Shown one piece after another: positions 1-62,494 of a stretch of 64,000 bases of DNA (position 1 is the first letter of the stretch; each line of letters opens with the position of its first letter). Origin of the DNA: Rhizopus arrhizus (taxonomy: Eukaryota > Mucoromycota > Mucoromycetes > Mucorales > Rhizopodaceae); assembly GCA_024220505.1 (NCBI GenBank), contig JAKZZE010000004.1, positions 1,116,001 through 1,180,000 on the forward strand, in the 5' to 3' direction. The translations under genes and the position numbers were made by a program. Below the pieces are notes generated by a model. It saw only the letters and a list, made by a program, of their open reading frames with translations. It made no database searches and had not been told where the DNA came from.

Positions 1-431
1 ACAGTTCAATCGGAGATATATTTACAGTCCAAATATGGAAACAAGGGTTTTTGAGTATGGAGAATACGATGCCGCAGTTTAAATACTAAAATTCCGACAA
101 TTTGCTGCTCTAATCGCAGAATTTGGCACTTTTTTCATGTTCCGTAAATGTAGTCCAATCCTGTTATCACGTAGCTTATCCATTAGGTACCAGACATTGT
201 AATTAATGCACTCAATTATAAAACTTTTGATTTTCTCTGCATCACTCCTGCTAGCTTTTTTAAAATACGTATACACGAAATTTTCTTTAAATTTGGCATA
301 AAATAGTCATTGTAAGTAATGAAAGAGATACACAGAACAATGTTCGTATTTAGTTACGGTTAAAAAACATCTTGCAACCCATGAAAAGCATAAATTAATT
401 TAACTGCAAGTGGGACACAATAATATTATTT
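1..431. other. AT-rich sequence, no gene seen
   Basis: I see no supported gene, repeat unit or RNA gene here. A 65-codon open frame on the minus strand (79-276) has no recognisable motif and looks like chance in AT-rich DNA. Confidence 0.5.
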
Positions 432-14209: not shown

Positions 14210-14435
14210 ATTGTCTAAGTAGTTGACCGTCTTTTTCCCTAAGACAATTTTTCCTAAAGAAGGTTTTTTTACTATCAGGTTTTTATGACAACTTACTACT
14301 ACGATCTATCCTCAATTATACTATGTCTATTTATCTACTCTATGATCATTACCGCACTTATTGTGTATGACCTTTGCTCATTTCTGAATCTTCACTTTTC
14401 CTTTTTACCGTTTGCTTCAAACTAGAAGGGGGCAA

Positions 14436-14858: not shown

Positions 14859-14863
14859 CAATC

Positions 14864-41800: not shown

Positions 41801-43458
41801 CACTCTTTTCAGAAATTATTCGCCAAACTTTTGAAAAAATTAGCTAAATTTAAAAAAGACAATTAGCCATTTTCCTGAGGCAATCTTAGCCGAAAAATAA
41901 AATCCTTTTAGCTAAATTATGCTAATTAAGTGTAATTCTTTCTTTATTAAATATGTTTTCTATTTAAGCAATCTTCATACCTTGTCATGGAATATCTACA
42001 AAACCCTTTAAGATCACTCAAAAGAATACTATTGCATGCATCACGTATTCTTGAGGATAATGTTTCTTCTTGCAAGAGCTCTTCTCTTTTCATTTTGCTC
42101 TTACAAACAGACCAAAACTGCTCAATAGGATTTAGCTCAGGGGAATATGGAGGAAGATATACATAACCATATCCCCGTCTGTTAATCTCTTTTTCAATTT
42201 CAGCGTTCTTATGAATAGGCGCATTATCCATTACTATGTAGCAATCTTTGAACTCCTTGTGCTTGTCTAAAACATTCATTGTGTCGCATATGAAATTGAA
42301 ATAGTGACCTGTAACAGTACCATCTCTATTTTGAGTGTTGATTACAGCTTTACCGCCTCCTGATTTTCTCTTCTTATTTTGATTAACCGCTCTTGGCTTT
42401 CTCGCTTTCATATTGATAACTCCATATGGAGGAATTGCCCCAAGTATGGTCGTAGTCTTTGTTCTTGTCTTGGGTATAACTACTTCGGCACGACTAACTA
42501 TCTTAGACCAAGCTACAGTTCTTTTCATATCGATATGAAAAGCAGCTTCATCGATAAATATACAGTTACTGAGATAGTCCATATCAGTCTCCATCCAAAT
42601 TTTAATCCATTTGTATCTTCTTTCGATGTTCTCGAATGAGTTTCTTTCCACTGAATGGAAGTGTGCCTTCTTCAAGCTGATTCTACATTTTTCTTTTATG
42701 AAATTGTATACAGCAGTTTTAGAGATGCTCAGATCCATAAATTAAGCTGATAAACCGTCCATTATTTCATCTAATGTTAACGATGGCTTCTTATCAATGT
42801 AATCAACTAAAAATATCCTGTGTTCCTCGCCTAAAGAGGTGGTCTTCCAACAGGATTCTTAGCAGTTTTTCGCTGAATAATGTCTTGTGGATCTTTTTGG
42901 TTTCTATCGTACCAGCCCTGGGCAGTCCACGTAGGCATACCCAGCTTCTTTGCGGCTTGGGCTACTTTCAGACCCTTTTCATAAACTAGCTCAAAAAAAT
43001 ACTCTTTATCCTCGTCCGAGTACTTTCTGTAAGCACGTCTTCCTTTCCCTCTTGAATGAGTCTCGACTAGTAACTCACTAGCGCGCTCAACCTTTTCTTT
43101 TTTTATAACTTGCTTCTCAGGAGGCTTCAAGTCGATGTACTGATCATAATTCGTAACGCTGTCTAGTGGATAAGTTTCATCGTCAACCTCCATTGCAGTA
43201 ATAACTGCTTCTTCTTCATTCTCTCCCACAAAATTTCCAAGGCCGTCTTCATATACAAAAGTACTCATAACTAGGGACTAATCAAAGTAAAAAGAAACAG
43301 TAAAGAAAGTGTACTACGAAATGGTTAATTTGTATGCTGAATTTGGCTAAAAGGGCTTTTATTTTTCGGCTAAGATTGCCTCAGGAAAATGGCTAATTGT
43401 CTTTTTTAAATTTAGCTAATTTTTTCAAAAGTTTGGCGAATAATTTCTGAAAAGAGTG
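41801..43458 (-). mobile_element. Tc1/mariner-IS630 type transposon with ~100-bp TIRs
   Basis: Ends CACTCTTTTCAGAAATTATT and complement, TIRs extending about 110 bp (to TTAGCCGAAAAATAAAA), flanked by TA (41799-41800, 43459-43460). Encodes one broken transposase on the minus strand. Inserted into the last four bases of L1b. Confidence 0.9.
41947..43268 (-). pseudogene. IS630-type DDE transposase (frameshift and nonsense)
   Basis: The N-terminal part (43268 to about 42831) has an acidic head, then a basic linker and an HTH (AQAAKKLGMPTWTAQGWYDR) ending GRPP. Reading then shifts frame by one near 42835 and meets a TAA just before MDLSISKTAVYNF (about 42740). The catalytic part (42738-41947) shows Asp in CIFIDEAAFHID, Asp in YIVMDNAPIHK and Glu in PPYSPELNPIEQFW. 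All three catalytic residues are kept, so only two lesions separate it from an open gene. Confidence 0.85.
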
Positions 43459-44587: not shown

Positions 44588-44679
44588 AATCAAAAGATGT
44601 GACAGAGGTAATCTTTGTTACATTAGAAACTAAAAAACATGACAACGTAACTCAAATTATGTGCTTCGATTCAACGAAA
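44588..44679. other. Short spacer before tRNA-Gly
   Basis: Sequence GATGTGACAGAGGTAATCTTTGTTACAT resembles LTR ends of the neighbouring group (compare 41634-41654). No gene. It is the 3' flank of tRNA-Gly and lacks a clear long T run on the tRNA strand. Confidence 0.4.
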
Positions 44680-44750
44680 TGCGTCCTCGGGGAATCGAAC
44701 CCCGGCCTTCACCTTGGAAGGGTGAAATTCTACCATTAAACTAAGAACGC
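44680..44750 (-). tRNA. tRNA-Gly(UCC)
   Basis: 71 nt on the minus strand. Acceptor GCGTTCT pairs with AGGACGC (one G-T), discriminator A; D arm AGTTTAATGGTAGAAT; anticodon stem TCACC/GGTGA with loop CTTCCAA (anticodon TCC); T arm CCGGG/CCCGA with TTCGATT. Its first 14 bases (complement TAAACTAAGAACGC) recur at every junction of the SINE/LINE array that starts at its 5' end. Confidence 0.96.
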
Positions 44751-45293
44751 AGGTGTGGGTGTTTGTCGTAGTGGTTAAGGCGCTACCGTATGGGTTGAGT
44801 GTCCTTTGGACATGCAGGTTCGAATCCTGCCTTCCTCGCACCGTCTCTTCCACGCACGGTCACATGACTTCCTTAACGTGCGTCGTCTCTGGCTTTCGGT
44901 GTGTCCCGCCTGTGTGTTGCGTTGCGTGCCAGCTGGGTATCTGGTCCACCTTCCCTCCCTTTCGGTGTCCCCGTTGGCATTCCTTTCTGTTCTCTCTTTC
45001 CTCCCTGGGTTTTGACGCCGCTGCTGTTCTGGTCGGTCTGCGTTGTGTGCTGTTTGGTGAGCAGCATTATCAGCGTTGCAAGGATGCCCACCTCGGGCTT
45101 AATGAAGCATGTCTCTCTCTCTCTGTCCCAAGTCTTCGTCTGTCGCTTCAGCTAAAATAATTGCCCTGCTTACCCTCCCTTCCCTTCCCCCTTAACAGTT
45201 TGTATGCTTTCCCAGTTCGTTCTGTGGTCAAGCAATTAATGACACATATGTCGCCTGCACATATGACCAATAAAAAATAAAAAAAGTTTCGTC
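44751..45293 (+). mobile_element. SINE1 (tRNA-derived, 543 bp, full length)
   Basis: The head is a class II tRNA-like sequence: GGTGTGG pairs with TCGCACC, an A-box-like GTAGTGGTTAAGGCG, a variable-arm hairpin TGTCC-TTT-GGACA (44800-44812) and the B box GGTTCGAATCC (44817-44827). The body is GC-richer than the surroundings (TTCCCTCCCTTT..., CTCTCTCTC), and the tail AATAAAAAATAAAAAAAGTTTCGTC ends at the 14-bp TAAACTAAGAACGC (45294-45307). The same 14 bp precede it (44737-44750, inside tRNA-Gly). Open frames in the body are not conserved as proteins in any sense I can defend. The hairpin loop is unoccupied here, giving the empty site for the insertions in SINE2 and SINE3. Confidence 0.88.
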
Positions 45294-45307
45294 TAAACTA
45301 AGAACGC

Positions 45308-45363
45308 GGTGTGGGTGTTTGTCGTAGTGGTTAAGGCACTACCGTATGGGTTGAGTGTCCTTT
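45308..45363 (+). mobile_element. SINE2, head fragment (split by A2 and B2)
   Basis: The first 56 bp of a SINE directly after the SINE1 junction. It is interrupted in the TTT loop of the variable-arm hairpin by A2, then B2; it resumes at 51877. Confidence 0.85.
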
Positions 45364-48013
45364 CACTGCAAATAATAGTGCAAATTCGTTACCTGATTGA
45401 CTAGCAACCTTGCGAAATAATTTACATTCGTGTACAATCAGGTAAGAGATTTATCCACGCACAGCCTTCTGTCTCTGCCACAAATCGTGTAAGTTATTGT
45501 TCGCCCTTTGGTTATGTGATGGTACAAGATTTGTGGCCAACACAGGAGACTGTTGGGAGACTTTTTCGTTAACTGATCTTGCAAGATGGATCTTTCATCA
45601 GTTACGTTGTGGCTCTTGTTTATTATCAATTTGATATCTAATGGTGCTTGGCAACCAATCACGCTTTGTAAAACACTACTTTATTTGTCTTTTTGCTCTT
45701 TTATAAACCACTCATATTGCCTTATATACTTCTTTATGAACCACTTATATTGCTTTATATACTTCTTTATCGACCATTCATATTGCAATAAATATTGCTT
45801 TATATACACAAAAAAATAGGGATTTTGTTTATAAAAAATAGCTTTTTTTTTATTTGAATAAAATAATAATAACAAAATATGATATTTCTTTGCTTGTAGC
45901 GTTTTAAAAGTGTACTTGACTTACCTAATGTCACCAGAACAGCAGCATTTAATCTAAAAATACATCAATTAGTCTCGTGGAACTCAAAAAGTTCTCAAAA
46001 GAAAAAAGAAAAAAAAAAGCCAAGCTCAAGGATTCAAAGACACAAGGATTCAAGGATTCAAGGACTTGAGCACTCAAAGCAAAAGAAAAGACATCAGTAC
46101 TTAAGAACCAAAGTAAAAACAAGGAAAGAAACAGAAAGAGGCCAAAGCAAAGCAGCATTCATCTATAACATTTATTAGCTATCGTGTATATGTAGTAAAA
46201 GCAATAGTACCTTTCTTTAGATAGACCATGGGAAGTAAACTAGCTAAGCGTATACTCACAAGTAAAAAAAGCAGCACACATCTATAATAATTATTAGCTA
46301 TTGAGTGTATGTAGTAAAAGTAATAGTACCTTGCTTTAGATGGACCATGAAAAAAAAAAGAAAAGAAAAAAAGAAACTACTCAAGCTTATATCAACAAGG
46401 AAAAGAAGAAGCAATGATAATCCTGGGAAAAAGACTTTATAAAGACCATTCAAACCATAAAGAAAGCAGCCGATACATCTTTACTACAGTAAAAGCACCA
46501 TTAGAGCTGGAATAGAATATATATAATATTAAGAACTTACCTTTTATAAAAAAAGAGAAGAAAAAAAAAGAAAAAAAAAAAACAGAAGTGCGTTTTTTGT
46601 AGCCTTATTTTACCAATGTTACACTTATTCAATGTCTATCCATATTAGAAATCAAAAACTGTTGCTTTTCATATAGTTTACATTTAATGGTATCCCAAAA
46701 GGTAACTGATACATTACTTGAACAAGGTTTATTACTTGAATGCAATATGTTTAGCATGAAGGGTATTATTTTATTTTATTTTTTACTTGAAATAAAAAAA
46801 AAGTCGGTATCTTAACAAATTATAGCAGTAAAACAATATCTTTTTTTTTTTTCTCCCTTGTTTTGTTTCATGGAATACACTAGATGACAAAGGTACAAAA
46901 GATAAAAAAGAATGCTCAAGTATTGATCATATGTAAGTTTATAAAAAAAAATAATAGCAACCAAGTCTAATGTCGGTCTTTTTTTTTTAAATTAGGAATT
47001 CCTAATGGGACACATTCGGATGATGAACATGAGCCTCATGAGCAAAGTTATTCTTTCCAACACGATAAAAATATAAGAATATCAAACTTATATTGTTGCT
47101 TGTTGTTGAAAAGCCCTTTTTGATAAAGGAAGTTGGCAATGTTAACATCTCTAATGGCTAATGGCTAATTGCAAATTACACCCATGTGCAAACATAAAGT
47201 AAGTAATGAACCAATATAGCTTAAAAATATATATTCTCTTGTATTATTTGTCATAAAAAATAATAAAGCAATCTATTTACTTGAAACACAAAAACTTTTG
47301 CTTGTATTTGTTAATTATAACTGCCTTGTAATAAAATTTGAGCAGAGCTTCTTTATTTTTTTATTCTTTTTAGAATATACATGTATCCTTTTGTTATAAT
47401 GCAAGAACATTTGCATTTCTATAAAGTATATTTGCTGTTAAATTATTGTTTTCATTTGAATAAGGAATCTTTTATTGCTATATTCTTTTTTTTTTTTACT
47501 CAGTCTTTTTCTTTAACTTTGTCTTTTTTTTTTTACTTTTAATTTTTCAGCTTCTTTTTTTTTTTTTTTCCCAAACGCAACTATTTTGTTACGTTCTGTT
47601 ACACGCTTCAAATGAACTAAGCTAAAGATCACAGACTGCCTTCCAAATATGTATTCTTTTGATCAAAATAATCACATTGTGCTTTTGTTTTCCGCATTTT
47701 ATCCTCAAAAACAAAAAAAGAAAATATCGGCCTTTAAACAATGGAGAGAAATACGCTTTCCAAAAAAAGATCATTTGTAAAAAAAGACATTTTTTAAAAA
47801 TGTGAATAACTCCATGAATATTTACCCTACAAATAAAATAATAACATCGTTAAATTTCTTTATTTTTTTCGTATCTAAATCTTTTTTCAAAATTCGAAAA
47901 TGATCAATACAGCAAGATTTAATTTTTTTCAGGAAAAAAAATAACAATCCGTTACCCAAAAGAAGAGCAATCTTGCGCAATCCGGTACCTAATTGGAACG
48001 ATTATTTGCAGTG
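45364..48013 (+). mobile_element. CACTA-like element A2 (non-autonomous, 2.65 kb)
   Basis: TIRs CACTGCAAATAAT / ATTATTTGCAGTG, TSD TTT (45361-45363, 48014-48016). Near-copy of A1 in the same orientation, with the same subterminal repeats (45703-45807), splice-rich segment (minus, about 45910-46555) and right end. No protein gene. Confidence 0.87.
45703..45807 (+). repeat. Subterminal repeat array of A2
   Basis: Three units equivalent to those at 17561-17664, with one or two base differences. Confidence 0.7.
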
Positions 48014-48019
48014 TTTGGC

Positions 48020-49276
48020 ACTGCACCCAATCACCGTTATCCAAGTTGATAAAGTTGATCTTTTTTGATAGTGGTAATTCTATTAAATGAGTGAGAACTC
48101 GGATTTAAATGTTAGAAAGCTGATTTTTATATCAGAAGAAAGCTTGAAAAAAATAGATTGTAAATCTATAAAAATAATCAAAAGTATATAATATGTTTGT
48201 TGAATAAAAAGACATTGTATTTTTTAAAAAAATAAATAATTTTCTGTTGTGCTACATGATGCCATACAAGATTACAAATTGGGAAGACTATGCTTTTTCA
48301 ACTTCAGTGCAATATTTTTTAACTTCAACAAAGATCGAAAACACAGTTCTATTGGCCTACAAGCTCGGAAATCCAAGTGATTGAGTCGTGGCGTTTTCTT
48401 TTCAAGCATTCTTCGGCTCTCATGTCGTATTTTACAAAAAAAAAACTTTGTTTAATACAAAAGGAGATTTATTTTGGTTACTAATGAACAAAAGAAAAAA
48501 AAAAAAAAAGAAGAAAGAGTGAAGAGGCACATATGAATAAGAGGGATGAAACTCTTATATAAGTGCATAATATCGCTATAATAATAAGTATAAAAGTATG
48601 TGTTTATAAATTGGAACAAAAAAAAAAAGAATGTGAATATGGTAGAAAATTTAAAAGATTGAATAAAATATATAAAAAAAAGAAGGATTCTTTTGGCTCT
48701 AAAGAAGTTAAACTTGTTTTAAAGCTGAAAAAGATATGTTTTAAATAGTAAGATCACGGCATAAAAAAGACAGAGTATTTTTGATAATCATTTTTATTTT
48801 TTGAGAGTAAAGAAAAAAAAGGCGGCAACGGAATGAATGTCTATTATGCTACACGTCTTGAGATTTCTATGAAAAGGTTAAAAAACAAAAGAAAAAGTAT
48901 ATTGTTACTAAGTACTTTTGAAAAAAAAAAAAAAAAATACATTCCCAGCATTGACATTACAAAAGGAATCTCCATTCAATGTATTGTTTAAACTTGAATA
49001 AAAAAAACGAGTGTTTTAAATTTGGGCTTTAAAAAAAAAGTACTTTAGAAATTTTTTCATTAAAAAAAATAAAAGTGGACCAAATATGACGAAGGTGGAA
49101 AGCATCAAACAGAAATCTAAAATAAGATTCAAAGACCACAATACAAACGGCAAACTGATTTTATCTGTAACCAAATCTAGAATGAAACAAAGGTAAAAAA
49201 AAAAATTTAAATTTAAAGATCTAAACACCGCTTTCATTTTTTTTTTTGTTTTATTTATTTCACAAGTTTTTTTTTT
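48020..49276. other. Gene-free AT-rich part of B2
   Basis: Mononucleotide runs and no supported coding. It matches B1 (3730-4346 and 16537-17217 inverted) and shows the uninterrupted site of the outer Ty3 insertion around 48708-48718 (complement of CAAGTTTAACTTCTTTAG). By analogy with A5 this is where the transposase would lie, so a deletion is likely. Confidence 0.6.
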
Positions 49277-50616
49277 TTAAAACAGCAAGTTGATTTCATC
49301 CAACTCTATTTCACCACCAAAAGCCCAAGCGATACTCTCTTCAGTTATATTTTCTTTTTTGATGAAGTCAGGAACAGGCAACGAGCATTTTCTTTGTATA
49401 CGAGGAAGAAATTGGATGCTGTTATTTCCAGTTCTTTGCCTCTTTGCCTTGTCACTTGCTATCTGATCATCCAACAGCTTAAAAAATTCGGTACACTGAA
49501 TATTGGATAATTAGTTGATTGCGCTTAAAAAGATATTAATTAAACTTACAGCAGGTGATCTGTACTTTGGTACGCGAACTTCAAAATAATCAACTGTTTT
49601 CTTGCACAAGACAGACATACGTTCCTTTTCAGTAAAAGGAGCCATTCTATCTGGATTTTGCTCCAGAAGAATTTCCTCCACCTTATCGATTGTTTCATTG
49701 TTGTACATGTCTTCTTCTTCAGACATGTATTGCTGTTGAAGCAAATACTCACAGTTTGGATAGCTTTCGTAAACGCCTTGATCCTTGTACTGCTCGTATA
49801 TAGCCTTACGAGCTCTTGTTTTCTAAAAAACAAAGTTAGTTATGCGATTACAATATTTTATGTGGCACTTACAGCGCTTCTACGGGTGACTTTTGCTGCT
49901 TTTCGTTTTCTTATAAATTCTTCAACTGGATCTTCCTCTTCACCTGTGGATATTCCCGCCTTCTTTGTATAATATTGGCGCTCGAGGTACTTGCGCAAAT
50001 CGCGGTTGTTGGTATTTTTAAATGAATAATGGCTATTCACATAATCCTGCAGCAATTTAAATACTCTTTGATTTTCAGCAGACTTCAGAGGCTTTTCAAG
50101 AACATATTGAGATGATGGCGGCAGGTTGTTGTAGTGATTTCTCACAGCATCCTATATTTCAGAGAAAAGCGATTAGTATATTTGTTTAAAATTGAATTTT
50201 AATGTTCTTACTTTGACAGCAGTAGCAATCGGCTTTGCGCCTTTGCCTGATTCTGCTTCAAGCTCATCGTATGCTTCTTTGAGCTTGCTGTATGCTACTT
50301 GCAAGGCCTGCTTTTCCTCTTGCTCTTTTCGAAGCATCTCCTTCAAACCATCATTTTCTTTTCTTAGCTCCATATAAATGGAAAAAGAAAGAGATACTTC
50401 ATCAGTCTCCATGTCTTCGGCTTGGCGCATTCGCTTCTGAACATGGGTCATGGGAGGAAAACCAGGCCTAGGATAGGCAAAGCTATCTGGAATGGCATCG
50501 CTTGAAGCAAGCTCAGGAACAACAGCACGAGAAGGAACAGCGATTGGTTGCCCAACAGAGTTAGAGCCACGAGCATTGGCAGGAGCAGGGTTGAATTGAA
50601 TACCACGATCAGACAT
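49277..50616 (-). CDS. CACTA-B accessory protein, four exons
   Basis: Exons on the minus strand 50212-50616, 49873-50151, 49550-49822 and 49277-49495 (405, 279, 273 and 219 nt, all phase 0; donors GTAAG, acceptors TAG or CAG). Product 391 residues starting MSDRGIQFN. Exon 1 is Pro/Ala-rich then coiled coil (LRKENDGLKEMLRKEQEEKQ). Exon 2 has NNRDLRKYLERQYYTKKAG and RKRKAAKVTRRSA, matching in place the exon 2 block of the A-family protein. Exon 3 ends FEVRVPKYRSPA (compare FVVKRPLFRSKA) and exon 4 begins with EFFKLLDDQ (compare EFHASLQK). So A and B proteins are distant homologues with a shared gene structure. The family is not known to me; a DNA-binding transposition factor is a reasonable guess. 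Confidence 0.8.
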
Positions 50617-50819
50617 ATTGTTATAAGAGTAATTTGAAATAAAGACAAGTGAGCTTGGCATCAAAATTGAATCTTTCTTAAATATCATCGAGTTTACAAT
50701 GAAACTCAGTCTTAGTATAGCAAAAGAAAAAAATATAAAAAGATTTCCTTTTCGAAATTTTGTTCCTTTTTTTTCTTTCTGTTCAGCAATTTCCTTTTTC
50801 AACATCGCTCCGGTTATCG

Positions 50820-50825
50820 CAAGGT

Positions 50826-50867
<42 letters not shown>

Positions 50868-51290
50868 AAAAGAAAAAGAAAAAAAGAAAACTTTAGTTCT
50901 AACATGCTGTAGTAGACATTCATACATGTATTCATGGCTGCTGTAGTTACTTTGGTTCTTTGCATATCTGCTCAAAAGGTAAATACATTCATATCTTTCA
51001 GTAATCTTTATTAAAAGTAAAATTAGCTTCCTTTAGTTCGTGGCTGAAGCTTTATGGATGTCTTGGCATCCTGTTTTGTTAGTAAAAGAGCTTTAAGGTA
51101 AATAAATCAAGTACATCATGGTTTACTTTTATTAATATTTTATTTTACACAACTTTAGATGCTTTGGCTTCTGTTGCTCCCTGTTGTCTATAACCTGTTA
51201 TAGCTTTGGATTTTTTTTTACTACTGGCGCGCTTTTCTTTATGGGCTTTATTTACTACGCTCTTTTGTTTGCTGCTTCTATGGTCAAGGT
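50820..51290 (+). other. Splice-site-bounded short segments divergent from the B2 gene
   Basis: On the plus strand a series of GT...AG spacers separates short blocks: GGTAAGTAAA...CTTTAG (50822-50895), block to CTCAAAAG, GTAAATAC...CCTTTAG, block to GCTTTAAG, GTAAATAA...CTTTAG, block ATGCTTTGG...GTCAAG, then GTAAGCG. Blocks are T-rich and would encode short hydrophobic peptides with stops, so coding is doubtful. The A elements have an equivalent arrangement at the same place. May be a spliced non-coding leader or promoter-derived transcript. Confidence 0.4.
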
Positions 51291-51294
51291 AAGC

Positions 51295-51876
51295 GTATTT
51301 TCCTTTTTTTTTTGCATCTACCGTTTGAATTTTTTTATTTGATCGTTTCCATGGATCCCCTGCTCGCTTTCCCTCCTTCCCCTACCCTTTTGTAATACTG
51401 TAATGAACCAATAATATATAATCAATATGGCAATAAAGCCCAAAAATAAATGAATAAAACTACATTTTTGACCAATAATACCGTGTTTTAAGCCTATTTT
51501 ATTTCCCAATATAAATCATCCAAAGCTAAATATAGCCATAATAAGCCAATAAGGAAGCATTGCTAAAGAGCAACAGACGAATAAGGAAGCATTAGGAAAA
51601 GGTAACAAGCCAATAAAGAAGTGGTATTAAAGAGAAACGCAAGCATGTAAGGTCCAATAGAAAGGCATCATACTTGTGTTTCGTCGTTAAAAGAATAATG
51701 AAGCGGCGCGTTGCCAAACAGTGATACTTGGTTACCGCACTGAAATAGTTAACATTCAACGTAAACAGGTTCAACTTGGCATACTGCAATAACGCTGCAT
51801 TAAATATGATAAATCCCGATTAACTGAGGTATATCTGAGGACTATCATACTTTGTAAATAACAATTATGTGCAGTG
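51295..51876. other. Left-end region of B2, no gene
   Basis: Short imperfect repeats of AATAAGGAAGCATT and CCAATAA... (51538-51615) may be subterminal repeats of the B family. No coding. Confidence 0.45.
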
Positions 51877-52359
51877 TGGACATGCAGGTTCGAATCCTGC
51901 CTTCCTCACACCGTCTCTTCCACGCACGGTCACATGACTTCCTTAACGTGCGTCGTCTCTGGCTTTCGGTGTGTCCCCCTGTGTGTTGCGTTGCGTGCCA
52001 GCTGGGTATCTGGTCCACCTTCCCTCCCTTTCGGTGTCCCCGTTGGCATTCCTTTCTGTTCTCTCTTTCCTCCCTGGGTTTTGACGCCGCTGCTGTTCTG
52101 GTCGGTCTGCGTTGTGTGCTGTTTGGTGAGCAGCATTATCAGCGTTGCAAGGATGCCCACCTCGGGCTTAATGAAGCATGTCTCTCTCTCTCTGTTCCAA
52201 GTCTTCGTCTGTCGCTTCAGCCAAATAATTGCCCTGCTTACCCTCCCTTCCCTTCCCCCTTAACAGTTTGTATGCTTTCCCAGTTCGTTCTGTGGTCAAG
52301 CAATTAATGACACATATGTCGCCTGCATATTTGACCAATAAAAATAAAAAACTTTCGTC
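51877..52359 (+). mobile_element. SINE2, remainder
   Basis: Continues the SINE after the TGG duplication, from GGACATGCAGG through the B box to the tail TTTCGTC; the 14-bp junction TAAACTAAGAACGC is 52360-52373. Confidence 0.87.
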
Positions 52360-52373
52360 TAAACTAAGAACGC

Positions 52374-52430
52374 AGGTGTGGGTGTTTGTCGTAGTGGTTA
52401 AGGCGCTACCGTATGGGTTGAGTGTCCTCT
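52374..52430 (+). mobile_element. SINE3, head fragment (split by A3)
   Basis: The first 57 bp, ending in TCCTCT. A3 inserted at TCT, the equivalent of the TTT loop in SINE1. Confidence 0.85.
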
Positions 52431-53706
52431 CACTGCAAATAATGTTGAGAATTTGACGCAGAATTCTGACATCGGTGACAGTTATCGGTCCGCAGGTTTT
52501 AAAGTTTTTTTTTTAGAAAAACATTATATCTTGCTGCATTGGTCATTTTCGAATTATGAAAAAAGATTTAGGTGCGAAAAAAATAAAGAAATTTAACAAT
52601 ATTATTTTTTTCATTGTAGGGTAAATATTCATAAAGTTATTCATGTTTTAAAAAGAATGTCTTTTTTTTTCAAATTGTCTCTTTTTGGAAAGCCTGTTCT
52701 CCTCTATAATTGAAAGACCGATATCTTCTTTTTTTTTGTTTTTGAGGGCAAAATGCGGAAATCAAAAGCATTCTGCGATTATTTTGATCAAAAGAATACA
52801 TATTAGGAAGGCAGTCTGTGATCTTTAGCTTAGTTCATTTGAAGCGTGTAACAGAACGTAACAAAATAGTTGCGTTTGGGAAAAAAAAAAGAAGCTGGAA
52901 AATTAAAAGTAAAAAAAAGACAAAGTTAAAAAAAAAGACCTAGTGAAAAAAAAAAAAAAAAAAAAAAAAAAGAGCATAGCAATAAAAGGTTCCTTATTCA
53001 AATGAAAACAATAACCTAACAGTAAACATGTTTTATAAAAATACAAATGCTTTTACATTATGACAAAAAAATACGTGTATATTCTAAAAAGAATAAAAAA
53101 AAAAGAAGCTTTGTTAACATCTTGTTACAAGGCAATTATAATTAATAGATACAAGCACAATTTTTTTGTTTTTCAAGTAAATAGATTGCTTTATTATTTT
53201 TTTATGACAAATAATATAAAAGAATATATGTTTTTAAGCTTATATTATTTCATTCTTACTTTATGTTTACACATGGGTGTAATTTGCCATTAGCCATTAG
53301 CCATTAGCCATTAGAGATGTTAACATTGCCAACTTCCTTTACCAAAAAGGGATTTTCAACAACAAACAGTAATATAAGCTTGATATTCTTATAGTTATAT
53401 CATGTTAAAAAGAACACCTTTGCTCATGAGGTTCATGTTCGTCATCCGAATGTGACCCATTAGGAATTCCTAATGTAAAAAAAAAAAAAAAAAAAAGAAA
53501 CTGACATTAGACTTGGTTATTACATTTTTTTTTATAAACTTACATTTGACCAGTGCTTGAGCTTTCCTTTTTATCTTTTGTACCTTTGACATCTGGTGTA
53601 TTCCATGAAACAAAACAAGAGAGAGAAAAAAATTGTTTTACTGCCTTATTTCATTGTTTAAGCACCGACTGTTTTTGCAAATTTACTACTCATTTTTTAT
53701 CGGGCG

Positions 53707-53754
<48 letters not shown>

Positions 53755-53792
53755 CCTTCTTTATTTCTTTACAAAATACTAAATTCTTCAAA

Positions 53793-53945
53793 ATGAACAA
53801 CATCAACAACATTAAAATCGCTTGCACTTGTACCGAATGCAGCATGCATCCTGGTGGATTTAGAAGACTTGCAAAGAGAACTGTTCTTACCCATAAGCGT
53901 CTGGACAGATGCAGAGGAAGAGGTTATATTTTTTTTTTCGTATAA
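53793..53945 (+). pseudogene. CACTA-A transposase, exon 1 remnant
   Basis: ATG at 53793; encodes IACTCTECSMHPGGFRRLAKR...H, equivalent to exon 1 of A5 (CTCSECSNHPNGFRMLAKR). The frame runs into AT-rich sequence and stops at 53945; the rest of the gene is deleted. It faces the accessory gene, whose stop is 90 bp away. Confidence 0.75.
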
Positions 53946-54035
53946 ACGTAGCTTTTTTTTTAACAAATGTTTATTCAATTTGAAAAGCGACGGCAAAACA
54001 AGGAACAAAAAGGAAAGAAAAAAAAAAGTGGATGC

Positions 54036-55330
54036 CTATGGCATTGGGTTGACGGCGGCAAAGGAGGAAGAACCAGAAACAGAAGTTGGGAAGCCAAGAG
54101 CAGGGGAAGAAAAAGCCCAGGAAGGGTAATACTCATGGTCGAGTTTATCGGGGAACTCCACCTCAACGGTTTCTATTCTTCTTCTAATAGTTGGTGGAGC
54201 CCCCTTTTTCTTTAACAAGTCTTTGTGCCCTTTCTGCAGCTCTTTGTGGAATTCCACCACCTATAGGCAATTACGGTATATTAGAAAATGAGGTTTATTG
54301 ATATGTTATACTTACTCTTTCGCTTCTGAATGATGGCCGCTTGACAATAAATGTACGGCCATCTTCATCTTCTGGGCTATCCTCCTCATCAGAGGTCCAA
54401 GCAACCGTCAAGATCTTTTCGGCAAATGGGAACCGGGCGTGGTATGCTGCTGCGTTGGCGTTGTAAGTAATCCTCCTGTTAAGGAGTTTCTATCATAAAG
54501 TATTGATGTAAGTATTATAGGCATTTTATATTATGATTTTTTGAATATCAAGTACTTACTGCATTTACGCGGCTGCGGCAGGCTGACGTTGGTGTCGCCA
54601 CAGCTTTCCCATTTGCCTTATCCACCATGTAATAGAACTTACTTCTAATCATGGTGAATAGCTGCGAATCAGTCAGGCAATTGAAGCGTTTGTGCTTCCT
54701 GACTTCATCGCGCAACAGATTTTTTACTTTTCTGTTGGCCTTGTCGGTGATGGACTTGAGCGTATCAAACTTGATGCCACGGCCAACCAAGTATCCACGG
54801 TAGTGATCAGCTATGTGATCCTATAATGTAAGTGAAAAAATTAAGAAATAAAGTTATTAAATTGAATTTGCTAATTGATACTTTAATTTTAAACTTACAC
54901 TACACTGCTTTTTGATCTTGTTGACCTCAGCCACAGAAACATGCTGCTCCCCTTGCTGTGGCTGTTGAACTGGATGCTGCTGCTGTTGCTGTTGCCACAT
55001 TTGAGCAAAAAACTGCATTTGGGCAGTCATCATCTCTGGTGTGAAACTAGAGGCTGCTCCAATGGCCTCTGCACCAGTATGACTGCCAAATGTTGCAACA
55101 GGAGCGGCCACAGGAACAGAAAAAGGAACAGAAGCAGAAGCGGGAACAGGAGCAGAAACGGGAACAGGAGCAGGAGTGGGAACAGGAGCAGGAGCGGAAA
55201 CAGGAGCAGAGAAAAGAGAAGAGGAAGAAGGAACAACAGTGGATGATGATCCAGCGATATTTGAAGAAATTCTTGCCCTTTTAGGGGCATTACTGGGAAC
55301 GTTGATGGGGGTGGCAGCACGACGAGACAT
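54036..55330 (-). CDS. CACTA-A accessory protein, four exons
   Basis: Exons on the minus strand 54899-55330, 54560-54820, 54316-54489 and 54036-54260 (432, 261, 174, 225 nt; phase 0). Product 363 residues. Exons 2 and 3 have exactly the same lengths as in A4. The first 20 residues equal those of A4 (MSRRAATPINVPSNAPKRAR), then an Ala/Pro/Val repeat tract (APVPTPAPVPVSAPVP) and a Gln-rich stretch replace the A4 linker. Exon 2 has DSQLFTMIRSKFYYMVDKA and SACRSRVNA; exon 4 has EFHKELQKGHKD and YPSWAFSSPALGF. Sequence has diverged from A4 through much of exons 2-4 while all frames stayed open, which argues for selection on the protein. Function unknown. Confidence 0.82.
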
Positions 55331-55679
55331 TTTTTAAAACAAATTATATAAGGAAAAAAAAAAGAAAAAAAAAAAGAAAAAACAGGGGTACAAAATAAAT
55401 TGAAGACGAGTACAAAACAAGGTGATACTTTCATTTATTTTACAAAAAAAGCAAAGAAAAAAAGTCTTTGGTGTTAAAAGATATTACATTTAAATAAAAA
55501 AAAAAAGAATTTAAACTGTTTATGAATAGCCTCTCTGAATGTTTCAATAGTTAAACAGTGTTAAAGAAAACTTATTGTTAACCGTTAATGGGTAATTGTA
55601 ACCCATGTAAAATGAGGCTATAAAAAATGTACTTTTTTTCCTTTTTTTTTTCTTTTCTTCTTTTTTTTTTAAAAAAACA

Positions 55680-56285
55680 TTCTTTCTAAAAGGTAAGTTC
55701 TTAACATTATATATATTCTATTTCTATTCTTATGGTATTTTTTTTTTTAGTAAAGTTGTGTTTGTTCCTTTCTTGATGTTTTAAATGGTCTTTATAAAGT
55801 CTCTCCCATGATTATCATTGCTTCTTTTACTTGTTAGTATAAGCTTGGCTGATGCTTTTTTTTCTTTTTTTTTATCTCATGATCCATCTAAAGCAAGGTA
55901 CTATTACTTTTACTATATACTCGATAGCTAATAATTATTATAGATGCGTACTGCTTCCTTTTTTACTTGTTGGTAAAGCTTAGCAAGGTTTTTCTCAGCC
56001 CATGTAAAGAAAGGTACTATTACTTTTATTACATATACACGATAGCTAATAACTATTATAGATGAATGCTGCTCTGCTTTGGCCTTTTCTATCTCTTTTT
56101 TGCCTTTGCTTTGGTTCTTAAGTACTGATGTCTTTTCTTTTGCTTTAAGTGCCCAAGTCCTTGAATCCTTGTGTCTCTGAATCCTTGAGCTTGGCTTTTT
56201 TTTTAAAATTTTTTTTTGAGTTCCACGAGATTAATTGATGTATTTTTAGATTAGATGCTGCTATCCTGATGACATTAGGTAAGTC
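55680..56285 (+). other. Splice-site-rich segment divergent from the A3 gene
   Basis: Two near-identical 46-48 bp intron-like units GTACTATTACTTTTA...TTATTATAG at 55898-55943 and 56014-56061, an upstream donor GTAAGTTCTTAAC after AAAAG, a TTTTTAG acceptor near 56250, and a final donor GTAAGTCAAG after GACATTAG (56279). Equivalent segments lie on the minus strand of A1 (17780-18420), A2 (45910-46555) and A4 (26020-26640). Intervening blocks are mostly hydrophobic-coding but frames are not conserved between copies. Possibly a multiply spliced non-coding transcript that starts near the accessory gene promoter and runs outwards. Confidence 0.45.
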
Positions 56286-56397
56286 AAGTACACTTTTAAA
56301 ACGTTACTAGCAAAGAAATACTATATATTATTATCATTTTATTTAAATAAAAAAAAAGCTATTTTTTATAAACCAAATCCCTATTTTTTTTGTATAT

Positions 56398-56540
56398 ATA
56401 AAGCAATATTTATTGCAATATGAATGGTCAATAAAGAAGTATATAAAGCAATATAAGTGGTTCATAAAGAAGTATATAAGGCAATATGAGTGGTCAATAA
56501 AGAAGTATATAAGGCAATATGAGTGGTTTATAAAGAGCAA
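56398..56540 (-). repeat. Subterminal repeat array of A3
   Basis: Four units on the minus strand of the same 33-bp repeat (GCAATATAAGTGGTTCATAA in the plus reading). Confidence 0.72.
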
Positions 56541-56878
56541 AAAGACAAATAAAGTAATGATTTAAAAAGTATCATTGGTTGCCAAATTATTTCTAACGTA
56601 GAATAGACTACGAAAAGCAGCTAACAAGAGAGACGCCTTCGCAGAAGGACAATTGGGTCTGTGTAAATCTACTTAGAGCTATGGATTATCTTTTTCGTTA
56701 ATATCGGCACCAAACAGGGACGCAGAATATATTGACAGACTTTTTGGTATGTAAAGGGTGCCGATATTGACGTCGGCATAAATACCGATTCAATCACAGC
56801 GTTTGGCATCGTTAAACAGAAAAGCATATTGTTAAAAATTAACAGTGTGCAGAGTTTGCACGATTATTTGCAGTGTCT

Positions 56879-57364
56879 GGACATGCAGGTTCGAATCCTG
56901 CCTTCCTCGCACCGTCTCTTCCACGCACGGTCACATGACTTCCTTAACGTGCGTCGTCTCTGGCTTTCGGTGTGTCCCGCCTGTGTGTTGCGTTGCGTGC
57001 CAGCTGGGTATCTGGTCCACCTTCCCTCCCTTTCGGTGTCCCCGTTGGCATTCCTTTCTGTTCTCTCTTTCCTCCCTGGGTTTTGACGCCGCTGCTGTTC
57101 TGGTCGGTCTGTGTTGTGTGCTGTTTGGTGAGCAGCATTATCAGCGTTGCAAGGATGCCCACCTCGGGCTTAATGAAGCATGTCTCTCTCTCTCTGTTCT
57201 AAGTCTTCGTCTGTCGCTTCAGCTAAAATAATTGCCCTGCTTACCCTCCCTTCCCTTCCCCCTTAAACAGTTTGTATGCTTTCCCAGTTCGTTCTGTGGT
57301 CAAGCAATTAATGACACATATGTCGCCTGCATATTTGACCAATAAAAAAATAAAAAGTTTCGTC
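56879..57364 (+). mobile_element. SINE3, remainder
   Basis: From GGACATGCAGG to the tail TTTCGTC; followed by the junction TAAACTAAGAACGC at 57365-57378. Removing A3 and one TCT gives 543 bp, the same length as SINE1. Confidence 0.87.
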
Positions 57365-57378
57365 TAAACTAAGAACGC

Positions 57379-59915
57379 CCAGTGGTCGTATACCCCTTCT
57401 CTCTGGCGTCAAGCACAGGTGGTCCCCATCCACAAAAAGGGTAATCCTACCTCGCCAGGGAACTATCGTCCAATCTCCTTGACCTCCATTGTCCGCAAGC
57501 TCTTTGAGATGTGTCTCTTTCCCTCTGTTGAAGATGTCTCTCCTCCGCTCGATGTAGTTCAAGGTGGTTTCCGTCACCAGCGTAGTGCATTGGATCAAGC
57601 TCTCTGTCTCCATGATCTGATGCACTCTTACCGACGCCGACACAATCATTATCCTGTGGTCGCTTTCCTGGACATCAAGTCAGCCTATGATACAGTCGAT
57701 CGTCGTATCATATGGCAATCGATGCTCGCCTCTTCTGCTCCTCTGTCCTTGGTGTCCTTGTTGGCCAACATGTTTGATGATGTCTCGGTGTCTGTGTTGT
57801 TGCAGAACAATGTCTCTGATCCGTTTGTGCCGAGTACAGGTGTCCTTCAGGGCTCTGTCTTGAGTCCTCACCTGTACTCGATCTATGTCAACACATTGCC
57901 AGCTCTGCTTCGTTCTGCTGCCTCTGCAACAACCACCTCGGTGCTATCGGTGTCTCCTTCTGGTCCTCTTGGTCCTGGTGCTCTGGTCGCTGATGGTCTT
58001 CCCTTTGGTCCTTTGGTTGGTACTGCTGCTTTGTCTTCCTCGTCTCTGTCGCCCACACCCATCAACAGTCTGTTGTATGCGGATGATGTGGCGCTGGTTG
58101 GGTCTGCTAGCGAAGTTCGGCATATGCTGGACCTAGCGCAGATCCACTCCTTGACTCTTGGTTACAAGTGGAGTCCACCAAAGTGTGCCGTCCTTAATGC
58201 ACCTACTGCCACCTCAAGTCGGTATGTTCGAATGTCATTATATGATCAAGACCTTCCCTCTGTTGAGGAGTTTACTTATCTTGGTGTGCCCTTTGATGGT
58301 AAGGGTATTTCTGTCTCTGCTCTGATAAAGCATCGCGCTTCTGGTACTTTTGCTGCCATGGCTCAGCTCCATTCGATGGGACTCAACCGTCAAGGCTTTA
58401 CTCTGCTGCTCTCTTCTCGTCTGTTCGCTGCGTTCATACGTCCTAAGCTTGAGTATGGCCTAGCCATTGCTCAACTTACAAGAAAGGACTATGACGAACT
58501 CAATCGCGCGCAAGACCGATGTCTAAGGATGCTTGTCGGTGGTCATCGAACTGCTTCAACTGTGGTGCTTCGGCACATAACGAACCTACCATCGATGACA
58601 TTTCGAGCTGATACCTTGGTTCTCAAGTTTTGTCTTCGCTTCAATGGCCTTCCTGACGACTGCCTCTTGTCTCTGCTGTCTTCTTCTGTTTCGTCGTCAT
58701 TGCTGACACAGCTCCGTAAGCGGCAAATTGTTCTTGATTACCCTTCGGATGCTCCTCTCTCTTCTTCTCGTCTTGCTTCTTGGTTGCGAAGGTATCGTCA
58801 AGACCAGTTTCAAAGCTTCTTACAGTCCACCCCCCAGGTTCTCATCCGCGCTTGTCGTCCTGTTCTTCGGGTGGATCCCATCCTGTACTTGCCTGCCTCC
58901 CGTGCTGACCGGTCTCGTCTTGTTAGATGGCGCATGGGTTGGATCCCAGGCAAGCCTGCTCCCTGTTCCTGTGGTCTTGGCGATACTTCTCGCTCGCATC
59001 TCATGGTCTGTACCTTGGTTCCTTCTGCTCTTTGGTGCTGCTTGCCTGTTCCGCCGCCTGACTATGTGGGTCACCACATAGACTATGTCTTGAACTTGCT
59101 TCCTGTCTCTGCTTCTGCTCGGTGTCCGCCTTTCTGGTCCGCTCTTTGTCAGATCCTCTGTCACTTTGACAAGATCTGTCATCCTTGTTTAGAATAGGGG
59201 AGTTTTAGGTAAATATAATATAGCAATCAAAGATAAAGAAATACTGTTAGAACTTGGTATCTCTTTATTAAGTTAAGATAACTATGATTCGATAAAAAAA
59301 AAATTCTACATGTAAAAAGTGAGAGTATTTATAGACATGATACGGATAAAGAATTAGGACAGATTTATAATCAACATGACAGAATAGATGATTACTATTT
59401 CTAATTATTAGTTTAGCCTGTTCCTAGCTTGTATTGTCAATTATGCTATTGGGATGGTTTCAGATATAACTATTTAAGGAGACGGTACGGATGGATATAA
59501 AGATCCTTAGTTCCGTGATTGGATATCATTGTTAACAATAATATCTCAGTCAGGATAAATGTTTTCATGACTAATGATGATCCGGTAAGTAATCGTCATT
59601 CCTTATTCAACATGCTCATACTATCACTAAACTATATTACAACCATGTCATCTTATTTGACTATGTGAAGCTAATATGAATAAAGCTTAATATAAAAATC
59701 TAATCAAAGTATTTTATTGATCTGTGTTGGGAAGAATGTTATAAATGATTCCAAGTTATGTCAATATATTATTCAGGATCATATCTGATTCCTTTTACTA
59801 AAATAAAGTGACTATAATCTTATGTATCCTTAACAATCCTGACATCGAGTACAACTCGTCTTCTCTGCCAGGTCAAGTCTGGATTGACAAGTCCTCTGCT
59901 GCTGCTGTTCCATAA
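57379..59915 (+). pseudogene. LINE reverse transcriptase (5' truncated, LTR-interrupted)
   Basis: Open from 57379 to 59185 and, after removing the LTR and one ATCCT copy, to a stop at 59913-59915. RT blocks visible: VVPIHKKG and NYRPISLTSIVRKLFE (fingers), VAFLDIKSAYDTVDR (first Asp), GVLQGSVLSPHLYSIYVN, and the catalytic YADD in LLYADDVALVG. About 55 Ser/Gly/Pro-rich residues lie between the last two, longer than usual. C-terminal to RT are YLGVPFD, the thumb region and a CCHC-like motif CSCGLGDTSRSHLMVC near the end, as in several LINE clades. It would prime on its nicked target and copy its own or SINE RNA. Endonuclease type unknown because the N-terminus is lost. Confidence 0.88.
59186..59835 (-). 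repeat. Solo LTR in LINE1, TSD ATCCT
   Basis: 650 bp with TGTTTAGAAT...CCTTAACA ends and a perfect 5-bp duplication ATCCT (59181-59185, 59836-59840). The minus strand carries the better TATA box (CTATAAATACTC near 59325) and AATAAAGAG, so I place it on minus. It splits the RT frame, which resumes in register afterwards. Confidence 0.82.
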
Positions 59916-60387
59916 TGACAAGCGCTCGGATCCACCCTCTGGCTTCTACCTCCCACTGCCAAACCATTTTAGTGCACGATGCGGAGGAGACCATGGTGTT
60001 GACGAGTTGCTCAGTAGTTAGCGTATCCATTGGCCTTTTCTCTTTCCTTTTTTTCGCTCTTGTGTGCTCTGCGAGTGTTTTTTGATTCTTGTCTTTTCTC
60101 TTTTGTTTCTTGAGTATGACTATCATGATATTTATCGCTTGTCAATATACTCCTTCTATATTAATAAAAATCTTCGTCTAAACTAAGAACGCACTTTTCT
60201 TTCGCTTTTGGTTAAAAAGGTAAACTTGACTTTTTTTTGGAAAGCCGATATCTCTGTCAAATCTATCCATCCATCAACAATTTTTACATCAATCGACTCC
60301 TTTTGATCTATACTTTTATTTGGTACAACTCATATCTCGATATCTTTCATACTTGTTGCTTAATCGTTGCTGAAAGTTTGCATCCAA

Positions 60388-60864
60388 ATGTCAACAACAA
60401 GAAATACTAGAGGATCAAAAATCCTGAATGCCGCCGCCGGACCCAATTCGTCCGACCACGAAGTCACAGTTCAGAACCTAAGTCACGCACTTCAAGAGGT
60501 AACGACTAGACTCTCAGCCTTAGAACAGTTCAAGCTGGAATTGGAGACTTTGAGAGGTGAGAATGCTCGCCTCGTACAAGTTACTGAATCTCAAGCCAAT
60601 GAGATTGCTTCTCTGCGTGCTCAGTTAGCCGCACACACTCCCGGGGTCCCTACAAGCACCCCAAGTTCAAATGCCGCCGTTTCTTCTCCTGTTGCTCCTG
60701 CTGCTGCTAACGCGCCCGTTTCTTCGCCCTCCTTGGGTACTGCTGCCTCGTCTTGGGCTACTGTTGTTTCTCGTTCTACAAAGAATAAACTCCGTCGCCG
60801 TGCCGCTGCTGCTCGTGGTTTTCAACCTGTAACAGGTGAGCAAGGATTTGACTACGTCTACATA
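60388..60864 (+). pseudogene. LINE2 ORF1 protein, truncated by mariner
   Basis: Start MSTTRNTRG at 60388 (an ATG seven codons upstream is also in frame). Coiled coil at residues about 35-80 (LEQFKLELETLRGENARLVQ), Ala/Ser/Pro-rich linker, then a basic stretch (SRSTKNKLRRRAAAARGF) and FDYVYI, the start of the folded domain equivalent to YKFLYLP in the ORF at 43551. The reading continues after the mariner for eight codons before the next transposon. Same plan as 43551-44330 but different sequence, so two LINE lineages are present. Confidence 0.75.
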
Positions 60865-62494
60865 CAGTAGCGGACAAAACTGGTGCACAAAAATTAAAAT
60901 CAACATTGTATCTCCGCCATATGTCTGCGACTTTTGTGGCATATACCATCTGAAAGACAGTCCAAAATATACATTATGTTATGTAAACCGGAACTGTGCC
61001 GGACATCCCCCAGGCATAAGGTCATTTTTAGTGATTTTTTGCATATTTCAATTTTCGCCAAAAATGTAGTGCTTGTCTAGCCTTCTTTCAATTTTCCCCA
61101 TATCTCTCCCGTTTGCTTTCAGATTTCACAGCATATTAGTAAATTTTAGTAGCTCTTAAAAAATATATAAAACTGTACTTATTTTGTATTTCCCATTGAG
61201 TCCCCCCTTTTGTTTTTACCCTATTCACTATAACAAAGTACTAGCCTTATATGTTTAAGAAAATAAGCAACTGTAAAAACGAAACTCTGAGATCTCGAAC
61301 ACGCCTAGTTCGTACGACAGCAGATATTTCTAGAGTAACAAGGATCTCTAAATGGACAATCAACAGGAGAAAGAGGGAAGAAAGAAACTTAATGTCTTGT
61401 GATCATGAAGGTATTCCGCTATTAGCCTGAAAAGTTATTAGTTCAGTCATCAACCTAGAGCTTGGACAAGGTCCGCTACACACAGTTCCTGATGCTCAGC
61501 ACATTGTGAGGACCTTAAGATACAGTGTTAGCAGACTGTCAGTCTAAAGGCACAGTAGGAAGCTAGATTTTGAGTCCGGAAGTAAGGAATCGAAGAATTT
61601 CATCAGCTGTATTAGCCGGAAAAAGCGATGAATGTGGTATCACGACAAGCCATTGTATACAATAGAGGGCTGGAAGTCTGCTATCTTTAGCAATGAAACA
61701 AATATGAACATTATGGATGCAGATAGTATACACTAATATTGAAAGCAAGTCGAGCAACCTGAGCGATTTTTTCACGGTGATCAAACAATGAAGCATGCTG
61801 GCTGCTCTGTTATGTTTTAAGGCTGTATTAGATATTGAGGACCAGAATATGTGTGTCAGGTATACGATGGTATAATGAACTCATAAATATACACATATAT
61901 TTCGCTTACTTCATACCACAAAAGCCTAGCGTATAGTAGTCTAAAACGTCGTAATCTCTCGTTTCAGTATGACAATGACACAAGGCACAAGTCAACGCAT
62001 GTCATAAACTCAATATTTGATAACAGCGCTTCTGTGCTACAAGTTTAGCCGCCACTAATCCCGGCCTAAGTCCGCTTAAGCATGCCAGGTGGCAATTGAT
62101 GGCAAAGGTATGATGATACGACACTAGATCAAAAAGGGTCGATGATCTTTGGAAAAGAATAGTTAAAGAGCCGGGTTCTTTTACTGAAAATGATATACAC
62201 GCATATTATTAGCATATGCAAAGAAGAATATCCGATAATATCAAGAGATGAGATGATTATATAAAGTCTAAGATTTTAGCCACTTTTGCGGTTTTTAGAA
62301 AATATAAGATTTTATAAATTCAAAGCACGCTTATCGCTCAGTTTTAACAATGTCATGCTTAGAACATACATAGATTACAATGACTAGTATATCCTCCTTC
62401 TAGTACAGTTTCATGACTATTGCAATTACCATGAGCAGGTAATGGTAGTTAAAAGCTAAAAAAAAGTTTTGTGCACCAGTTTTGTCCGCTACTG
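60865..62494 (+). mobile_element. Decayed mariner/Tc1-like element, copy 2
   Basis: 1630 bp, ends CAGTAGCGGACAAAACTGG and complement, flanked by TA (60863-60864, 62495-62496). Transposase remnants on plus: an HTH-like RTTADISRVTRISKWTINRR near 61310-61365 and YDNDTRHKSTHV near 61970. Many stops. Nearly identical to copy 1 at 38989-40618, including most disabling changes. Confidence 0.88.

Follow-up and report, generated by a model that had tools for sequence, protein, structure and literature searches.

The retroelements described here are very probably tRNA-targeted non-LTR retrotransposons (LINEs) and a SINE with a common target, which insert by target-primed reverse transcription (TPRT), duplicate 14 bp and leave the tRNA gene intact. 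The core of the initial annotation, i.e. repeated insertion at the 5' end of a tRNA gene with a 14-bp duplication and an undamaged tRNA, is supported: the 14 bp is not fixed in the element, as it varies with the tRNA, and the other duplications that do exist correspond to nt 1-14 of different tRNAs. This points to an AP-endonuclease LINE that enters an essential gene family and yet keeps each gene intact, by which the problem of damage would be solved.

The array at the tRNA-Gly(UCC) gene

The window is the whole analysed stretch of 64,000 nucleotides from Rhizopus arrhizus. The borders of its elements were set by aligning the window with SINE1 and with a full LINE; the 14-bp copies were located by 14-mer search. 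The features are as follows.

44680..44750, minus strand: tRNA-Gly(UCC), intact, the target gene (ARAGORN, 44679-44751; Rfam RF00005, 44680-44750)
44737..44750, plus strand: target site duplication, 5' copy, complementary to tRNA nt 1-14
44751..45293, plus strand: SINE1, full length, putative tRNA-like head, TTTCGTC end
45294..45307, plus strand: 14-bp duplication copy between SINE1 and SINE2
45308..45363, plus strand: SINE2, 5' part
45364..51876, no strand assigned: DNA transposon with CACTG terminal inverted repeats, within SINE2
51877..52359, plus strand: SINE2, 3' part
52360..52373, plus strand: 14-bp duplication copy between SINE2 and SINE3
52374..52430, plus strand: SINE3, 5' part (inner border from the transposon end)
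52431..56875, no strand assigned: second CACTG DNA transposon, within SINE3
56876..57364, plus strand: SINE3, 3' part (inner border from the transposon end)
57365..57378, plus strand: 14-bp duplication copy between SINE3 and LINE1
57379..60178, plus strand: LINE1, 5'-truncated, TTCGTC end
59186..59835, no strand assigned: 650-bp TG..CA insert within LINE1, 5-bp ATCCT duplication, solo-LTR-like (sequence reading)
60179..60192, plus strand: 14-bp duplication copy between LINE1 and LINE2
60193..60865, plus strand: LINE2, 5' end intact, with the start of ORF1 (ATG 60388)

As the initial annotation had stated, the exact 14-mer TAAACTAAGAACGC is found at all five junctions (44737, 45294, 52360, 57365 and 60179). 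When up to two mismatches are allowed, the window holds 5 matches; 100 dinucleotide shuffles averaged 0.76, and none had as many as 5. Its reading as the complement of the first 14 nt of tRNA-Gly(UCC) agrees with the gene placed on the minus strand by ARAGORN and Rfam. Alignment also confirms that SINE1, SINE2, SINE3, LINE1 and LINE2 stand head to tail, all on the plus strand, and the terminal TTCGTC common to LINE1 and the SINEs is real. The initial annotation had each insertion regenerate an intact tRNA gene; in fact there is one complete gene, the tRNA-proximal one, and the distal junctions contain the 14 bp only.

LINE1 begins at the equivalent of L056 position 2874, inside ORF2, and its reverse transcriptase frame spans 57368-59197. 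The similarity of LINE2 to the full LINE breaks off at 60865; LINE2 appears to be interrupted and to continue beyond the window to C34:1184470, directly followed by the next 14-mer. The CACTG transposons of SINE2 and SINE3 lie at a nearly identical spot, and the one in SINE2 is outside the LINE/SINE system.

Distribution of element ends across tRNA genes

LINE and SINE 3' ends were collected genome-wide with a search pattern free of target letters, which saw 104 of 106 places; 14 of the census places have no LINE/SINE tail (tail class assigned by text pattern), and the remaining 90 form the denominator. In 88 of these 90 ends of the window family, the complement of the first 14 nt of a tRNA follows: directly in 86 (85 exact, one with 1 mismatch), past a duplicated TTTCGTC in one, and the last is a Val-UAC case. 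One counted end, C14:1035730 (Asp), is SINE-like only over its last ~15 bases, and the census without it gives 87/89. Across these ends, eight tRNA species serve as targets: Pro, Asp, Gly-UCC, Gly-GCC, Ala, His, Val-AAC and Val-UAC. The 14 bp is therefore target sequence and not part of the element, because in copies elsewhere these 14 positions hold the starts of other tRNAs. The same tRNA 14-mer is present at both ends of 18 of the 19 full SINEs, and at junctions adjoining a tRNA the gene is intact by ARAGORN in 22/22 (the tRNAs of L168 and L171 were missed in the joint run and both found in single runs).

The initial annotation had named one tRNA-Gly gene as the target; Gly(UCC) is indeed targeted, but given eight species, plus Cys and Thr for related LINEs, this was too narrow. 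The Gly 14-mer is present at 14 element junctions, and nearly all ends carry some tRNA start. The 19 occurrences of TAAACTAAGAACGC in the genome consist of these 14 element junctions and the starts of five tRNA-Gly(UCC) genes, three of which have a family element exactly at nt 1 and two of which have none. For tRNA-His, 4/5 genes are occupied. GGTCGCTTAGCTCA and GCGGGTATAGCTCA are putative tRNA heads.

Two of the 90 ends lie away from any known tRNA head. One of the two is the off-target copy at C18, which lies beside no tRNA but is flanked by an exact duplication of 14 bp, TACATTAGTTATCA; its insertion point is TGTA^GTAC. A few copies keep bases of the previous host tRNA, which are traces of moves between tRNA genes: a copy at a Pro site has the 5' extra AAGAACGC (Gly-UCC suffix), and a copy at an Ala site has GAAGCC (Pro suffix). 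Such donor bases are a direct record of element movement.

The LINE and its target recognition

The search for a full-length LINE and its endonuclease class, suggested in the initial annotation, yielded a LINE of ~5 kb with an AP-type endonuclease and a reverse transcriptase. It has two ORFs, of which ORF2 matches PF14529 and PF00078, with PF03372 narrowly below the cut-off. Stop-free ORF2 frames of at least 1187 aa with 94-98% identity make up 34 of the 72 scored matches (1088 candidates). When LTRs were sought in L056, the only direct repeat of at least 30 nt was a 31-nt internal pair (74%). No match to an RNase H domain was found in the LINE, and the only NCBIfam match was to a group II intron reverse transcriptase, below the cut-off. 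Among the four matches of the endonuclease to PDB sequences, TRAS1 is the sole retrotransposon, and a weak one (E 0.0042). An AlphaFold single-sequence model of the window reverse transcriptase fragment (mean pLDDT 33) was set aside. With endonuclease and reverse transcriptase in ORF2 and no LTRs, the element is a non-LTR retrotransposon; its N-terminal AP-type endonuclease probably places it outside the R2/NeSL restriction-like-endonuclease group. Traits typical of TPRT are the 14-bp duplications and the 5' truncation of LINE1 and of the C18 copy.

In the proposed mechanism, the AP-type endonuclease would nick the sense strand of the tRNA gene within the D-arm/A box, at the bond that follows A14. 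The freed 3' end would prime reverse transcription of a LINE or SINE RNA ending in UUCGUC, and the opposite strand would be cut 14 bp off, at tRNA nt 1, so that the first 14 nt would be duplicated. The element would thereby come to lie directly 5' of an intact tRNA gene that could be hit again, and head-to-tail arrays would arise.

Related LINEs behave alike at tRNA-Cys and tRNA-Thr, with 2/27 ends away from a known tRNA head. There is a difference in nt 13 of the target tRNA, in which the 12 heads, rather than the ends, count as independent observations: it is T or A for the window family, family A (88/88 ends, 8 species), and C for the related families (25/25 ends, 4 heads). One family accepts many tRNA sequences and related families favour others, which makes D-arm recognition testable with families A and B.

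Alternatively, RNA polymerase III factors could tether the elements, as has been proposed for TRE5-A and Ty3, so that targeting would not depend on the D-arm DNA sequence. The main targets all belong to the Pol III genes, the A box is a TFIIIC site, and tethering could operate jointly with sequence recognition. We nevertheless consider it unlikely, since the insertion position is base-exact within the gene, nt 13 differs between families over the 12 heads, and the insertion at TGTA^GTAC made its 14-bp duplication without a tRNA. Returning to D-arm recognition, it is reasonably likely that a guild of at least three LINE families (an AP-endonuclease being found in two of them) and several SINE families shares out the tRNAs of one fungus according to D-arm type; all would join at A14 and leave their target genes whole, with tRNA genes as renewable landing pads and arrays as records of moves.

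Growth of the arrays

It is improbable that the arrays arose mainly from duplication or unequal crossing-over of a single first insertion. Array segments of C26 and C40 do have a common unit order and a long A-tract, and the SINE at C34:19147 has the Ala 14-mer at one end and that of Asp at the other; because of this mismatch and this agreement in order, arrays are also shaped by recombination or duplication. However, neighbouring units are not of one kind and differ in truncation, in the transposons nested in them and in their 5' extras, and the same elements occur on many contigs, beside eight tRNA species, which argues for repeated insertion. SINEs farther from the tRNA are no more diverged from the majority consensus (proximal vs distal, p 0.87, with the distal C34:19147 counted as proximal); therefore no insertion order is claimed, and the newest unit in an array is something that we infer.

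The flank past the window array (L012) resembles that beside an unoccupied tRNA-Gly (L019), and 0/1000 shuffles were as good. This likeness was dropped as proof of an empty site, as both flanks run on into similar transposons; it is also weakened by other repeats that adjoin tRNA 14-mers (L005 vs L014, 97% over 591 bp).

The SINE and its link to the LINE

The SINE head is called tRNA-Leu(gag)-like by ARAGORN in L036 only and not in other copies; its putative A and B boxes were read by eye. The SINE, a compact element, has the address used by the LINE, and it fits these sequences that the LINE may be its mover. Little credence is given to a SINE that uses an enzyme source of its own and converged on the target. 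Outside the duplication, LINE and SINE share just ~17-20 A-rich bases ending in TTCGTC, which would suit such an origin; but the two have an equal 14-bp stagger, the TTCGTC end and the same tRNA species, a chi-square test with rare types pooled found no detectable difference in which tRNAs they use (p 0.28), and no other coding element with a TTCGTC end was recognised among the ends examined.

The probability that the element carries the 14 bp as a fixed 3' portion with a chance resemblance to tRNA-Gly is negligible: the 5/5 window copies and 14/14 Gly-site junctions are identical by exact search, but this reading is already refuted by one element family that bears different tRNA starts (Pro, Asp, Ala, His, Val, Gly-GCC), matching at both ends in 18 of 19 full SINEs.

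Comparison with known systems

No fungal case of a LINE or SINE directed to the tRNA start was found in open-access text. The comparison with the TRE elements made in the initial annotation is apt for the strategy, to which the likeness is limited. TRE5, TRE3 and NLTR-A are described as dictyostelid non-LTR elements that use tRNA genes as safe sites: TRE5 is found upstream of the tRNA at a distance of ~50 bp, TRE3 downstream at ~100 bp, and NLTR-A of D. purpureum, which contains an RNase H domain, 2-6 bp ahead of where the tRNA coding sequence begins (PMC5006619, PMC5911963). The main text of the NLTR-A paper contains neither 'target site duplication' nor 'TSD'. In contrast to these elements, the junction here falls within the gene, following A14; 14 bp are duplicated, and a SINE uses the same site. 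Also, the element abuts tRNA nt 1, unlike TRE5, and its LINE, unlike NLTR-A, has no RNase H match.

Concerning the NeSL-related elements, the source names NeSL-1_TV (tRNA-Pro), LIN15_SM (tRNA-Arg) and LIN25_SM (tRNA-Glu) and groups them with restriction-like-endonuclease lineages, the position of NeSL-1_TV being poorly supported (PMC4640811). They are likewise tRNA-gene-specific non-LTR retrotransposons, each with one tRNA species named there, whereas the LINE described here has an AP-type endonuclease and a single family hits eight species. Dada elements, whose strategy is comparable, are DNA transposons with a putative duplication of nt 8-13 in some families (PMC8869645). They differ in using a transposase and no reverse transcriptase, and in the 6-bp duplication of those families.

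Like the R1/TRAS LINEs, the present LINE has an AP-type endonuclease and a strict target, and its endonuclease weakly matches that of TRAS1. R1Bm makes a 14-bp duplication. The targets of R1/TRAS elements are 28S rDNA or telomeric repeats, whereas those of the elements described here are tRNA genes.

Insertion array and its target gene

A LINE/SINE system specific for A14 of tRNAs (nt 14, in the D-arm and A box) is strongly supported. Within the window, the 14-mer which the initial annotation placed at five unit junctions is present at all five, above chance, and is complementary to the first 14 nt of a tRNA-Gly(UCC) gene.

Features of the window (positions in nt)
4828-15944: gag and pol frames resembling those of LTR retrotransposons; one has a chromodomain
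41947-42741: frame with a DDE_3 endonuclease domain
44680-44750: tRNA-Gly(UCC) gene
44737, 45294, 52360, 57365, 60179: the 14-mer
45364-51876, 52431-56875: CACTG-ended DNA transposons, at nearly one spot in the SINE2 and SINE3 heads
59186-59835: LTR-like insert (650 bp, TG..CA) within LINE1, with a 5-bp duplication (ATCCT)
60193: start of LINE2, by alignment to a full LINE
63014-63619: Tc1/mariner-like transposase frame (PF01498), where LINE2 is interrupted

Unit borders were set by alignment to SINE1 and one full LINE. Based on this alignment, SINE2 and SINE3 are each interrupted by a CACTG transposon and LINE1 is 5'-truncated; the 650-bp insert in LINE1 is probably a solo LTR.

Genome-wide distribution of element ends

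The window corresponds to C34:1116001-1180000 in the genome surveyed (50.26 Mb, 41 contigs). With each exon counted, 34 CotH domain matches in this genome indicate a Mucorales-like fungus. The 14-mer occurs 19 times genome-wide: at five tRNA-Gly(UCC) starts and 14 element junctions. For an unbiased search, the element end alone (AAAAABYTTCGTC) was used, without target letters. It is found at 106 places; the reversed pattern, used as a control, has 52, and some matches by chance are therefore to be expected. Flanks were inspected for 104, and removal of 14 without a LINE or SINE tail leaves 90 family ends. A tRNA 14-mer follows directly in 86 of these, one with a single mismatch (Pro-AGG 36, Asp 17, Gly-UCC 14, Ala-UGC 11, His 4, Val-AAC 3, Gly-GCC 1). 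With one end where TTTCGTC is doubled before the Pro 14-mer, and one at Val-UAC (gene confirmed by ARAGORN), 88 of 90 ends lie at tRNA heads (first 14 nt). The Gly-UCC 14-mer itself stands at 14 junctions, and most other ends carry other tRNA heads; the alternative that the 14 bp are a fixed part of the element fails, since they differ by tRNA species across the 86 ends.

Concerning the two exceptions, one is a decayed copy on contig C6 (78-82% to the LINE), for which no clear duplication was found. The other, a short LINE on C18, is flanked by an exact 14-bp duplication, TACATTAGTTATCA, and no tRNA was found in the surrounding DNA. Judging from this single copy, the 14-bp stagger would be a property of the element, and a site such as TGTA^GTAC would be usable without a tRNA.

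Intact tRNA genes and occupied sites

ARAGORN finds an intact tRNA gene at all 22 junctions where an element adjoins the tRNA body (Gly-UCC 3, Pro 5, Ala 2, Asp 2, His 4, Gly-GCC 1, Val-AAC 1, Val-UAC 1, Cys 2, Thr-UGU 1). A check of all tRNA-Gly(UCC) loci shows three of five genes occupied; for tRNA-His it is four of five. Identical 14-mers stand at both ends of 18 of 19 full SINEs; the exception (C34:19147), with an Ala 14-mer at one end and Asp at the other, is best read as recombination.

Extra bases at the 5' end offer a record of movement. Exactly one A precedes the pyrimidine-rich start in 35 of 69 LINE-like starts, and AGGTGTGG opens 28 of 33 SINE starts. Longer additions which match or nearly match tRNA starts occur on five LINEs: AAGAACGC at a Pro site (Gly-UCC, 8/8), GAAGCC at an Ala site (Pro, 6/6), GCAAGCC at a Gly site (last five bases, Pro), and two Ala-like stretches at Ala sites. 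These are read as RNA begun within the previous neighbour tRNA. Other extras (runs of T, additions of 1-3 bases, extra Cs on one SINE, element-start variants) are uninformative either way.

The family A LINE and its relatives

A full-length LINE of family A (elements ending TTCGTC) is found at locus L056. ORF1 (328 aa) is followed by ORF2 (1183 aa), which begins in the ORF1 stop codon and contains an AP-type endonuclease and an RT; RNase H gave no match at E values up to 0.1, and no long terminal repeats were found in this copy. TRAS1 is the sole retrotransposon among the PDB matches of the endonuclease (E 0.0042). Of 1088 candidate ORF2 matches 72 were scored, and 34 of these are 94-98% identical with a frame that runs without stops for 1187 aa or more, so the family is probably young.

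Elements with a related ORF2 (66-73% and 80% identity) terminate in TTTTCGAC. All 28 places in a census of CATAAATTTTCGAC were inspected, and 27 bear the family tail, followed by nt 14..1 of tRNA-Cys (15) or tRNA-Thr(UGU) (6), two putative tRNA-like heads (4) or other DNA (2). Upstream of the family B copy L110, an endonuclease with PF14529 is encoded, which shares 73% identity with the family A enzyme. Further tails (..TTTTATC, ..TTTAACA; SINEs ..TTTAACC, ..TTTCACC) occupy the same position at the few places examined. Nt 13 is T or A at 88/88 family A ends (eight species) vs C at 25/25 ends of other families (four heads); the Fisher test counts ends, and its p overstates the independent evidence. 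The confirmed Thr gene, the 22 intact genes and the endonuclease in a second family make the case slightly stronger.

SINE-like units at L032, L034, L084, L104 and L023 have other tRNA-like heads (GGGGATGTGGATGTAGCTCAG.., AAGGTATGTGGAG..) at tRNA-Pro 14-mers, and some end TTTAACC. Repeats L005 and L014 (97% alike over 591 bp) lie directly beyond tRNA-Gly 14-mers; further families may use this same spot.

Targeting of tRNA genes is a strategy already known in other lineages (comparison literature: PMC5006619, PMC5911963, PMC4640811, PMC8869645, PMC7175516). No fungal or Mucoromycota LINE/SINE of such kind was found among the open-access papers listed. What looks new is the combination of an AP endonuclease, a base-exact A-box site, many tRNA species, a SINE partner, renewable arrays and several families in one fungus.

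Possible array exchange and other elements

Array segments at C26:609216-609795 and C40:180345-180924 agree in unit order and in a long A-tract, which points to duplication or to exchange between arrays. The CACTG transposon has a hot spot in retroelements. Many genomic SINE matches start only at query 49-58, and insertions resembling this transposon recur in the LINE 5' UTR near AAAGCC^GATATC; the pattern was noted at loci L062, L093, L096, L114, L115 and L124.
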